DNA of 39,077 nt from Kiritimatiellota bacterium (GTDB lineage Bacteria; Verrucomicrobiota; Kiritimatiellia; CAIQIC01). Shown one piece after another: positions 201 through 22,627 of this stretch. The stretch lies in assembly GCA_026398385.1 (NCBI GenBank), contig JAPLSZ010000253.1, positions 1-39,077 on the forward strand. Reading direction: 5' to 3'. The notes beneath the pieces were generated by a model. That model did not search any database, had not been told where the DNA came from, and saw only the letters and a program-made list of their open reading frames with translations. Position 1 is the first letter of the stretch, and every line of letters starts with the position of its first letter. Both the position numbers and the translations under genes were made by a program.

Positions 201-352
201 GACAGGATTAACAAGATTCTACAGGATTGAAATCATCGCCATGCCAGCCAATCCGTCCATAAACTTACCACTTTTCTGAAAATCCTGTTAATCCTGTCCA
301 AATATTCTTTGGTTGCGGCGCTGCCGCGCTAAGCCTTGGCGGTTAAATGCTT
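201..352 (-). repeat. Dispersed hairpin repeat, copy A (inverted relative to copy B at 12554-12703)
   Basis: Reverse complement reads gcatttaaccgccaaggcttagcgcggcagcgccgcaaccaaagaatatttggacaggattaacaggattttcag...caatcctgtagaatcttgttaatcctgtc and aligns along its length with 12554-12703. Core ends gacaggattaaca(g/a)gatt form terminal inverted repeats. Confidence 0.85.
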
Positions 353-1687
353 CGGTTGCGGCTTCACCGCCGCTCCCACGAGCGTGAACGGACCGGCCCA
401 TTCGATTTCGACGTCCGTCAACTGCCCGAGCAGATCTTCCGTGGCCGGGAAGTATACCAGCTTGTACTGGGGCGTGCGACCCCACCAGCGGTCGCGTTTT
501 TCGTCGCGGCCCTCGACCAGCACGCGGACGGTCCGGCCGACATACGCCTGGTGCTTTTCCGTCAGGATGCGCCGGTGCTGGTCTTCCAGCAGCAGGCGCC
601 GTCGCTCCTTTTCGTCGGCCGGCACATCGTCGGGCAGCCGGCGCGCGGCGTAGGTTTCCGGCCGCGGGGAGTAGGGCGCGATGTGCAGGAAGTCGAGGCG
701 CAGCTCTTCCAGCAGCCGGCAGGTGTCCATGAACTGCGCCTCGGTTTCGCCGGGAAAGCCGACGATGATGTCGCTGTTGATGCCGGCATCCGGAAGGCGC
801 TGCCGGATGCGCGCCACCAGTTCCCGGAATTGCCGGACCGTGTAGCCGCGGCGCATGGCCGCCAGCACGCCGTCGTGGCCGGACTGCAAGGGGACTTCCA
901 GATAGGGCTGGACCTTTTCAATCCGCGCGACGGCGTCGAGCAGGCGGTCGGTCACCCATTGGGGGTGGCTGGTGAGAAAGCGGATGCGCCAAATCCCCGC
1001 GATGTGCGCGGCGTCCGCCAGCAGGCCGGCGAGGTCAGCGCCGTCGCCCAGGTCGAGTCCGTAGCGGTCCACGATCTGGCCCAGCAGCGTCACCTCGCGC
1101 ACGCCCTGATCCGCCAGGCGGCGGATTTCCTCCAGGATGTCCTGCGGCGGCCGGCTGCGCTCCGGCCCGCGGCGGTAGGGGATGACGCAGAATGCGTAGG
1201 CGTGCGAGCAGCCCAGCACCGCCGGCACCTGCGCGGTGACGGTGCGGCCCTGCGCGGAGGGCGGCAGCGCGGGCGCGGCGTCGGCGTCCGGCGCGACGCG
1301 TCGCAAGGCTTGGCGGGCCGCCGCGTCGAGGTCGTGGGGGCGCAGTAACTCCAGCAACGCCGCGGGGTCGGACGGCGGGAGGAAGACATCCACGAAGGGC
1401 CATTGCGCGCGCAGGGCCGGGCCGGCCTGGCGGCCGACCAGGCAGCCCATCACGGTCAGGATCAGCTCCGGGCGCCGTTGTTTGAACGCCCGCCAGTTGT
1501 CCAGTACGCGGAGGATTTTATCCTCGGCCTGCTGGCGGATGACGCACGTGTTCATGACGAGCACGTCCGCCGCCTCGGCGCGATCGGTGGGCGTCAGGCC
1601 CAGGCTTTCGAGCTGCGCTGCCAGCCCGCGGGTGTCGGCCGCGTTCATCTGGCAGCCGATGGTCCACAGGTGGTAGGTGCGCGGCAT
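329..1687 (-). CDS. miaB: MiaB-family tRNA methylthiotransferase (radical SAM), with altered SAM-cluster motif
   Basis: Starts MPRTYHLWTIGCQMN; N-terminal Cys of the UPF0004 domain present (TIGCQMN, NTCVIRQQAEDK, VMGCLVGRQ); radical-SAM region VPAVLGCSHAYAFCVIPYRRGPERSRPP; GFPGETEAQF motif; C-terminal TRAM-like region. CAT at 1685-1687 is the likely start; the 519 aa ORF is over-extended upstream. Confidence 0.9.
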   Translation of the reverse strand: MPRTYHLWTIGCQMNAADTRGLAAQLESLGLTPTDRAEAADVLVMNTCVIRQQAEDKILRVLDNWRAFKQRRPELILTVMGCLVGRQAGPALRAQWPFVDVFLPPSDPAALLELLRPHDLDAAARQALRRVAPDADAAPALPPSAQGRTVTAQVPAVLGCSHAYAFCVIPYRRGPERSRPPQDILEEIRRLADQGVREVTLLGQIVDRYGLDLGDGADLAGLLADAAHIAGIWRIRFLTSHPQWVTDRLLDAVARIEKVQPYLEVPLQSGHDGVLAAMRRGYTVRQFRELVARIRQRLPDAGINSDIIVGFPGETEAQFMDTCRLLEELRLDFLHIAPYSPRPETYAARRLPDDVPADEKERRRLLLEDQHRRILTEKHQAYVGRTVRVLVEGRDEKRDRWWGRTPQYKLVYFPATEDLLGQLTDVEIEWAGPFTLVGAAVKPQPKHLTAKA

Positions 1688-1770: not shown

Positions 1771-2538
1771 TTATATATCCACCAGGCCCTTGCAATCGGG
1801 GTAGCCGGAGCAGCCCCAGAATTGTTTTCCGGCTCTTTGGCCCTTCTGGGCGGTGCGTAGCACCATGGCCTGGCCGCAGGCGGGGCACGCGGGAATGGAA
1901 TCCGGTCGCTCCGACCGATCGGTCGAATCCGACGGATGACCGTTCTTCTTGCGGTTACGTTCAGCGAGGCGGGCGGTGGCCAGTTGCTCGCTGTAGCCGC
2001 CGTCTGCGACAAACTGCGCCTCCAGCGCCGCGATCTGTTTGTCGAGCAGGTAGTTGGTCTGGTTGATCAGGCAGAGCAGGGCATTCGCCCGCAGGGCAGG
2101 GTCCTCATGATCGAGCCAAGGGGCGTAGAGCGCGTGGCGCTGTTCGTCGGAGAGATCCGACGTATCGGCCGGCTCCGTCGGATGGGCCGGATGCTGCTGC
2201 CCGATCCGGCGAACGGCCAGCGCCTCGGGGTCATCCGGTTCCCATTTTCTCAGATGGCGGTGCCGCAAAAAGTCTTCATAGTCGAGCAGCAGTTCCTCCA
2301 GGCTGGAGCGCGCGACGTTGACCAGCCGCAGCTCGGTCTGCGAGGAGGTGGCGGAAGCGCGGCTGCCCTCGGCGATATTTTGCCGGCCACTCCGCGCGGC
2401 TTGGACCATTTGATCGCTCATGCGCGAGCGCGGTTCCAGGTAACGCTCGCAGAACCAGTAGGTGGCATCGTAGATGATAGTGTCTGTTTGAAAGCTGCGC
2501 AACTCGCGATAGCCGCCGCTGGGCCTGAGCTTGGGCAT
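1771..2538 (-). CDS. Four-helix-bundle protein (S23/IVP-like) with C-terminal topoisomerase-type zinc ribbon ('four helix bundle suffix' type)
   Basis: MPKLRPSGGYRELRSFQTDTIIYDATYWFCERYL...QMVQAARSGRQNIAEGSRAS...SLEELLLDYEDFLRHR; C-terminus CPACGQAMVLRTAQKGQRAGKQFWGCSGYPDCKG. Confidence 0.75.
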   Translation of the reverse strand: MPKLRPSGGYRELRSFQTDTIIYDATYWFCERYLEPRSRMSDQMVQAARSGRQNIAEGSRASATSSQTELRLVNVARSSLEELLLDYEDFLRHRHLRKWEPDDPEALAVRRIGQQHPAHPTEPADTSDLSDEQRHALYAPWLDHEDPALRANALLCLINQTNYLLDKQIAALEAQFVADGGYSEQLATARLAERNRKKNGHPSDSTDRSERPDSIPACPACGQAMVLRTAQKGQRAGKQFWGCSGYPDCKGLVDI

Positions 2539-2548
2539 GGTTGGTCTC

Positions 2549-3606
2549 CTACGTTGCCGACAGGAAGTCGGCAAGCAGCGCGCGGACTTCGGCCGCGACC
2601 GGCCGGGCGAGCAGTTCGGCCACGCGGCGCTGCTGCGACTGAAGGATTTCCGCGCGCAGCGGCTGGTCGTCGAGCACGCGGTGGATCAGCTCGGCGAGTT
2701 CCGGGGCCTTGAGCTCCTCGTAGAGCACGCCGGCCTGGCCCAGCGCTTCGGGCGTGCCGCCGGCGTGGCGCGCGATCACGGGCACGCCGTGGTACATGGC
2801 CTCGACCAGCGGCGCTCCGTAGCCTTCGTGCGCGCTGGTGGAGACGAACACGTCCGCCTGCCGGTAGTACGCGATCAGGCCGGCGGGCGATTCGGCAGAT
2901 CCAGGTCGCCGACCAGCATCTTGAGCATGGTAAAATAACGCGGACAGCTCCGATTGGAACCGACGATGATCAGGCGGCTGAAGGGATTGATCCGGTAATG
3001 ATAAAACGCGAAGGCCCAGATCAAATCCTCCAGGCGCTTGTTCGGCGCGATGCGGCCGATGCACAACAGCGTTTTTAACGCCGCGCGGGCCAGGGCGGTC
3101 ACGCGGTAATCCGGGGTGATATCCATCGGCGCCCGGTCGAAAATCAGCGGGCAGACGCGCACGCCGGGCGTCCCCAGCGTGGTCAGGTCATCGGCATCGT
3201 ATTGCGACACGGCCCAGACCGCGTCGGTGCGCCGGGCGAGCGCGGCGACCTGCGCGTGGGCGTCGGCGAGCTGGCGGGCGACGTCGTCGTCGAACCCGCG
3301 GAAATACTCCGGCGGCGTGATGTTGTGATAGACTAGGATTTTGCGCGCGGCGACGGCGGCGAACGCGTCCGCCGCCGGCGAGGCCAGGCCATAGTGATGG
3401 AGGACCACGTCGCCGGCGCCGCCGGCGTATTCCGCCAGCGGCCGGCAGTCGCCGCGGAGCGTCGGCGAGACGTGCGCCGGATCGGCGAAGATGTCCGCGG
3501 CGTGGCCCCAGCGGCGGAAGAGGTCGCGCAGGATGACAGCCTGACGCGAAATGGCGTCGCCATCGGCATAGCCGGCGAGCAACTGGTCTAGGCGGGGCTG
3601 GTGCAT
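2549..3606 (-). pseudogene. Glycosyltransferase group 1 (GT4-like), disrupted by a frameshift/small deletion near 2880-2905
   Basis: N-terminal part in ORF 2875..3606 (MHQPRLDQLLAGYADGDAIS...LLCIGRIAPNKRLEDLIWAFAFY...LVGDLDLPN) and C-terminal part in another frame, ORF 2549..3064 (SPAGLIAYYRQADVFVSTSAHEGYGAPLVEAMYHGVPVIARHAGGTPEALGQAG). Confidence 0.8.
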
Positions 3607-20367: not shown

Positions 20368-22146
20368 TCAGTCGAGGATTTCAAGGATTTCCGGCGCGGT
20401 TTGGCCGCAGAGCCGCCGGCAGGCCTCCACGATCTCCCCGGCGGAGCCGGAACGCAGGGCGGCCTGGGCCAGCTCCTCGGCCTGCGCGAAGCGCACGCTG
20501 CGGATGACGTCCTTGACCAGCGGCACGGCGGGCGGGTTGACGCTGAATTCATCCAAGCCCAGGCCGATGAGCAGCGGCGCCAGCAGCGGGTTGCCGCCCA
20601 TTTCGCCGCACACGCCGACCCAGAGGCCGTGCTCGTGGCCGACCGCCACGGTATGCTGGATGAGCCGGATGATCGCCGGGTTGGTGGGCTCGTACAAGCC
20701 GGCGACCAGCTCATTGACGCGGTCCACGGCCAGGGTGTATTGCACCAGGTCGTTGGTGCCGAGGCTGAAGAACTTGACGTGCGGGGCGATCAGGTCGGCG
20801 GTCAGGGCGGCCGAGGGCACCTCGATCATGACGCCCACTTCGATGTCCGGATCGAAGGGTACGCCGCGCTGCGCGAGCTCGGCCTGCGCCTCCGCCAGCA
20901 GTTGGTTGGCCGCGACGACTTCCCGCACGTGGCTGACCATGGGATACATGATCTTGACGTTCCCGCGAACGCTGGCGCGCAGGATGGCGCGCAACTGGGT
21001 TTTGAAGATATCGGGCTGCGCCAGGCAGAAGCGGATGGCGCGCCAGCCCATGAAGGGGTTGACCTGCTGCGGCATTTTCAGGTGCGAGAGGAACTTGTCG
21101 CCGCCGATGTCCATCGTGCGGATGATCACCGCGGCGGGGGCGACGCGGCGGGCCACCTCGGCGTAGACGGCGGTCTGTTCGTCCTCGTCGGGCAGCTTGT
21201 TCAGATACAAATACTCGGTGCGGAACAGGCCGACGCCCGTGGCGCCGTTGGCCAGCACGGCGTCCACGTCGCCGGGCAGGCCGATGTTTCCCGAGAGAAT
21301 CAGGCCGTAGCCGTCCCGGGTCATCGCCGGCTGGTCGTGGAGCACCGCCAGGCGGGACTGGATGGTGCGCCGGGCCTGGTCGCGGCGCGCATACCGGGCC
21401 AGGCGTTGCTGCGTGGGCCGCAGGTACAGCAGGCCCTGGGAGCCATCCGCGAGGACCGGATCGCCGGCGGCGAGGCGCAGGCTGACGTCGTGCATGCCCA
21501 CGACGGCGGGAATGCCCAGGGCCCGGGCCATGATGGCGGTGTGGGAGGTCGGGCTGCCCAGGTCGGTGACGAAGGCCAGCACCTTGTGCTTGTTCAGACC
21601 GGCCGTTTCCGAGGGCGCCAGGTCATGGGCCACGACAATGCACGGCGACTCCAGGTTGGCCAGCGTGCGGCCGCTGTGGCCGGTCAGGTTCCGCAGCAAG
21701 CGCCGCCCGATGTCGCGCACGTCCACCGCGCGCTCCCGGAGGTAATCGTCGTTCAACTCCGCCAGCGACTGCGCATAGCGGGCCGCCACGTCGCGGACCA
21801 CGGCCTCGATGTTGCGCCGCGTGGTGGCGATGGCGCGGGTGACCTCGTCCAGGAAGCCGCGGTCCTCCAGCACCAGCAGGTGCGCCTCGAAGATCTTCGC
21901 GCTTTCCGCGCCGAGGGTTTCTTTGACCCGCAGTTGGACTTCGCGGATCTGCTCGCGGGTGGCGGACAGGGCCTCCGTAAAGCGCTGGAGTTCGCGCGGG
22001 ACGTCCGCCGCGCCGATCTCCCGCTCGACCACGGTCTCGTCCTCGGAGGCCAGCAGGAACACCGGCCCGGTGGCGGCGCCGGGCGACACCCCGACGCCCT
22101 TGAGTTCCAGTTCGTCCGCGGCGGGGGCATGGGGTTTGGCCGTCAC
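20368..22146 (-). CDS. ptsI: Phosphoenolpyruvate-protein phosphotransferase (PTS enzyme I)
   Basis: LKGVGVSPGAATGPVFLL; GSPTSHTAIMARALGIPAVVG active-site His; GIGLFRTEYLYL-like; GVMIEVPSAAL; FFSLGTNDLVQYTLAVDR. Confidence 0.95.
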   Translation of the reverse strand: MTAKPHAPAADELELKGVGVSPGAATGPVFLLASEDETVVEREIGAADVPRELQRFTEALSATREQIREVQLRVKETLGAESAKIFEAHLLVLEDRGFLDEVTRAIATTRRNIEAVVRDVAARYAQSLAELNDDYLRERAVDVRDIGRRLLRNLTGHSGRTLANLESPCIVVAHDLAPSETAGLNKHKVLAFVTDLGSPTSHTAIMARALGIPAVVGMHDVSLRLAAGDPVLADGSQGLLYLRPTQQRLARYARRDQARRTIQSRLAVLHDQPAMTRDGYGLILSGNIGLPGDVDAVLANGATGVGLFRTEYLYLNKLPDEDEQTAVYAEVARRVAPAAVIIRTMDIGGDKFLSHLKMPQQVNPFMGWRAIRFCLAQPDIFKTQLRAILRASVRGNVKIMYPMVSHVREVVAANQLLAEAQAELAQRGVPFDPDIEVGVMIEVPSAALTADLIAPHVKFFSLGTNDLVQYTLAVDRVNELVAGLYEPTNPAIIRLIQHTVAVGHEHGLWVGVCGEMGGNPLLAPLLIGLGLDEFSVNPPAVPLVKDVIRSVRFAQAEELAQAALRSGSAGEIVEACRRLCGQTAPEILEILD

Positions 22147-22556: not shown

Positions 22557-22627
22557 GCGTGGGCGGGGCTTCCCGCCCCGCGCCCGCAACCGCCACACAA
22601 CCGCGGGGCGGGAAGCCCCGCCCACGC
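22557..22627. repeat. Perfect inverted pair (26-nt arms) of REP-like repeats inside the lpt-hpf-pts operon
   Basis: gcgtgggcggggcttcccgccccgcg - 19 nt - cgcggggcgggaagccccgcccacgc. Confidence 0.9.

Follow-up and report, generated by a model that had tools for sequence, protein, structure and literature searches.

A MiaB orthologue with tyrosine at the middle cysteine of its radical-SAM motif, and a broken miaA, in a Kiritimatiellota draft genome

Radical-SAM enzymes that lose a motif cysteine generally lose their activity, and the tRNA i6A37 methylthiotransferase MiaB carries its motif cysteines as CxxxCxxC, which reads GCNNFCTYC in the solved structure 7MJV. The i6A substrate of MiaB is made by MiaA. 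According to a review (PMC10702137), MiaB normally needs this modification, although a Streptomyces MiaB is reported there to be active on unmodified A. Here we describe a miaB from a Kiritimatiellota draft genome in which the codon for the middle motif cysteine encodes tyrosine. The new observation is that the assembly's only miaA, whose product makes the substrate for MiaB, is broken as well. The window analyzed is the stretch of 39,077 nucleotides of contig JAPLSZ010000253.1 that contains miaB.

The miaB reading frame spans positions 332..1687 of the minus strand and encodes 452 amino acids with the initiator methionine, which is omitted from the residue numbering used here for the product (P0001). 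The protein matches TIGR00089, the MiaB/RimO subfamily model, at 401 bits and possesses the full MiaB architecture with all three domains intact: an N-terminal UPF0004 domain for the auxiliary cluster (1382..1675), a Radical_SAM core (PF04055; 710..1213) and a TRAM domain (368..550), all on the minus strand. The auxiliary-cluster cysteines Cys11 (codon 1654-1652), Cys47 (1546-1544) and Cys81 (1444-1442) are in place. The intact auxiliary cysteines, core and TRAM-like region had been recognized in the original prediction, and domain matching and alignment bear this out. Judged by homology and architecture, the window gene is a MiaB orthologue.

The same prediction had pointed to a CxxxYxxC motif reachable from the canonical one by a single TGC>TAC change, and both parts hold. 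The motif (1187..1210, minus strand) reads CSHAYAFC and thus departs from CxxxCxxC, with C159 encoded at 1210-1208, Tyr163 by TAC at 1198-1196 and C166 at 1189-1187; the minus-strand frame around it is VPAVLGCSHAYAFCVIPYRRG. The orthologue of a same-genus genome (G001) is 88% identical, carries the motif CSHACTFC and has TGC at this codon, the differing base being 1197. Tyr163 also aligns with the middle motif cysteine of 7MJV. As encoded, the protein is not expected to hold the [4Fe-4S] cluster that binds SAM, and with a cluster ligand missing it should not methylthiolate i6A37.

An alignment of 95 distinct orthologous sequences, the comparison proposed originally, placed cysteine at the Tyr163 column in 94, so a motif misread in the wrong register was ruled out; the remaining five cluster cysteines are invariant in 95/95. 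A degenerate Tyr pattern occurred in this assembly only among 346 genomes of the class, 64 of which contained the matching Cys pattern, and a looser CxxxYxxC pattern was likewise confined to this assembly among 388 genomes of the phylum. Tyr163 is therefore private to this assembly, and an alternative motif at the level of the clade was rejected. The original prediction had also considered that the clade might place a compensating cysteine elsewhere. The alignment revealed none in a suitable position, the sole extra cysteine being C322, at a variable column 156 residues past the motif. Just one near-invariant position of the 95-sequence alignment is violated in this miaB, and one or two such violations are seen in ~30% of the aligned sequences, many of them milder than Tyr163.

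No second MiaB or MtaB was found in the assembled genome (~88% complete). The only other UPF0004 gene, located on contig C197 by the proposed search for a further MiaB, MtaB or RimO, encodes an intact RimO (401 bits against a cut-off of 357). Adjoining rimO on this contig is an ORF (L002 1965-3251) that resembles, by eye, a reverse transcriptase/maturase of the group II intron type.

For miaA, the genome contains a single match, on contig C105, as part of an in-frame fusion (L113 970-2340, equal to C105:3047-4417). The frame starts as the lipoprotein signal peptidase gene lspA and continues as miaA from position 12 of TIGR00174, and the MiaA P-loop, GPTxxGK(S/T), is absent from it. In G001, lspA (163 aa) and miaA (320 aa) are separate genes and the P-loop is present as GPTAAGKT; it is also kept in the other relatives inspected. 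Coordinate arithmetic places LspA Leu151 137 nt from the P-loop lysine in G001 and 9 nt from it here, a net loss of ~128 nt; the junction lies near base 3484 of C105. A functional MiaA co-occurring with MiaB, which is a matter of genomic context and not a property of the protein, is thus missing from this assembly. The broken miaA lay outside the view of the original prediction and matters for deciding whether inactivation or error is at work. Since miaA was examined only because of miaB, the coincidence weighs moderately, not decisively.

Comparison of miaB with its G001 orthologue gave a dN of 0.067 and a dS of 0.315 (NG86), or 0.056 and 0.80 (YN00). When the changes were polarized with four family outgroups, 10 fell on the branch of this genome and 10 on that of G001, with 34 unresolved. 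These data indicate that purifying selection acted on miaB up to the very recent past, with no acceleration on its branch, so the Tyr change is either very recent or an artefact. What remains of miaA is still constrained as well (dN 0.19, dS 0.64) and hardly accelerated (23 changes vs 18). Long-term pseudogene decay of the two genes was rejected by the dN/dS values together with the relative-rate counts. The nucleotide differences from G001 at 1193, 1195 and 1197 form a cluster that is not unusual for miaB (P about 0.3), and an odd local clustering of differences near the codon was rejected accordingly.

We favour, at a probability just short of even, a very recent true loss of MiaB function in the strain alongside the loss of MiaA. 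Provided that the sequence is correct, ms2i6A37 synthesis has two consecutive enzymes disabled. A MiaA that lacks the P-loop would make no i6A, MiaB would then have no normal substrate, and the Cys-to-Tyr change could be tolerated. Because MiaB normally requires i6A, the loss of MiaA would remove most of the selection on MiaB, which makes a real and recent loss of the pathway coherent; given the activity reported for the Streptomyces enzyme, that loss need not remove every substrate. The null state of the protein, the presence of both lesions in the cell and the order in which they arose are inferred. Against a real loss stands the absence of any independent sign of relaxation in the relative-rate counts of either gene.

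An error of consensus or assembly is a serious possibility that we also place below even. In that case, the cell would have TGC and an intact miaA, and the draft would have this base, the lspA-miaA junction and a nearby glycosyltransferase gene wrong. That gene (2549..3606, minus strand), ~1 kb from miaB, is split by a frameshift, with a deletion of 22 nt relative to G001 near 2890. The draft itself is scaffolded and fragmented (376 contigs, with N runs on C105 and C79), and miaB lies ~330 nt from a contig end. With such a draft, a frameshifted neighbour and a contig end close by, all the lesions could be artefacts, and the confinement of Tyr to one genome and the strong past constraint on miaB and miaA without relaxation also suit an error. 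However, the three differences around the codon are no more clustered than elsewhere in miaB, the single near-invariant violation is matched in many other sequences, a single frame suffices to align most of the remaining window genes for which G001 has a counterpart, and an error would need to strike the catalytic codon by chance. Real loss and assembly error are split close to even.

Several other features of the window were recorded. In a gene that appears ptsI-like by translation (20368-22146, minus strand), the stretch that corresponds to residues 51-113 of the ORF in G001 lies in another frame here, which suggests that one genome or the other has undergone compensating frameshifts. The ORF at 1771-2574 (minus strand) seems, by eye, to have a topoisomerase-type zinc-ribbon-like C-terminus behind an apparent four-helix-bundle domain. 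The segment at about 22559-22626 has several 80-87% identical copies on other G001 contigs and is apparently a dispersed repeat.

Some activity might be kept by a labile cluster held by two cysteines and another ligand or water. The rest of the MiaB protein is intact, in favour of such a hypomorph; however, the position of Tyr163 is effectively invariant in orthologues and the loss of a motif cysteine is generally known to abolish radical-SAM activity, which makes residual activity improbable. Still less probable is a repurposed radical-SAM enzyme in which Tyr functionally replaces Cys: the open, full-length frame has a history of constraint, but Tyr occurs in no relative or clade, no near-invariant position was found to have changed along with it, and the only new cysteine is the distant C322. 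A natural Tyr-ligated radical-SAM enzyme was absent from the titles and abstracts searched, a partial coverage of the literature. An enzyme that works with its SAM cluster ligated by Cys2-Tyr or Cys2-other, and so lacks the third cysteine of the canonical motif, is hardly to be expected, and Tyr ligation in a repurposed enzyme is very unlikely. The original prediction had offered error, recent inactivation and, as the least likely, repurposing: the first two fit the private Tyr, the prior constraint and the lack of a compensating cysteine or second MiaB, and the third finds no support, since relatives do not share the Tyr and no further catalytic residue changed together with it. The likelihoods attached to real loss, to error and, jointly, to residual and altered activity, which together receive a small share, are judgements and not computed values.

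Overall, we hold with high confidence that the encoded protein is either a dead copy or an error and not new chemistry, to which the data contain no pointer. We suggest that the gene be annotated as a MiaB that is probably non-functional and whose sequence needs verification. Should the lesions be real, the strain has only just lost both ms2i6A37 enzymes and would offer a natural case of decay of a tRNA hypermodification pathway; if they are artefacts, the locus illustrates that a draft genome with point and deletion errors can mimic enzyme inactivation.

Among known systems, the window protein is closest to MiaB (TIGR01574; 7MJV-7MJZ), with which it shares a full-length match, the three domains, the auxiliary cysteines and the outer two radical-SAM cysteines. 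It differs in the middle cysteine, replaced by Tyr, and scores 352.5 bits against a TIGR01574 cut-off of 355.3, which the G001 orthologue passes at 356.8. RimO (TIGR01125) belongs to the same superfamily and has the same domain order, but the window protein reaches only 245 bits against the cut-off of 357, and the genome has its own RimO on C197. Radical-SAM enzymes such as ThiC and Dph1-Dph2 likewise depart from the CxxxCxxC motif. These enzymes nevertheless rely on three cysteines, spaced differently or set in another fold, whereas the window protein simply has one ligand fewer.
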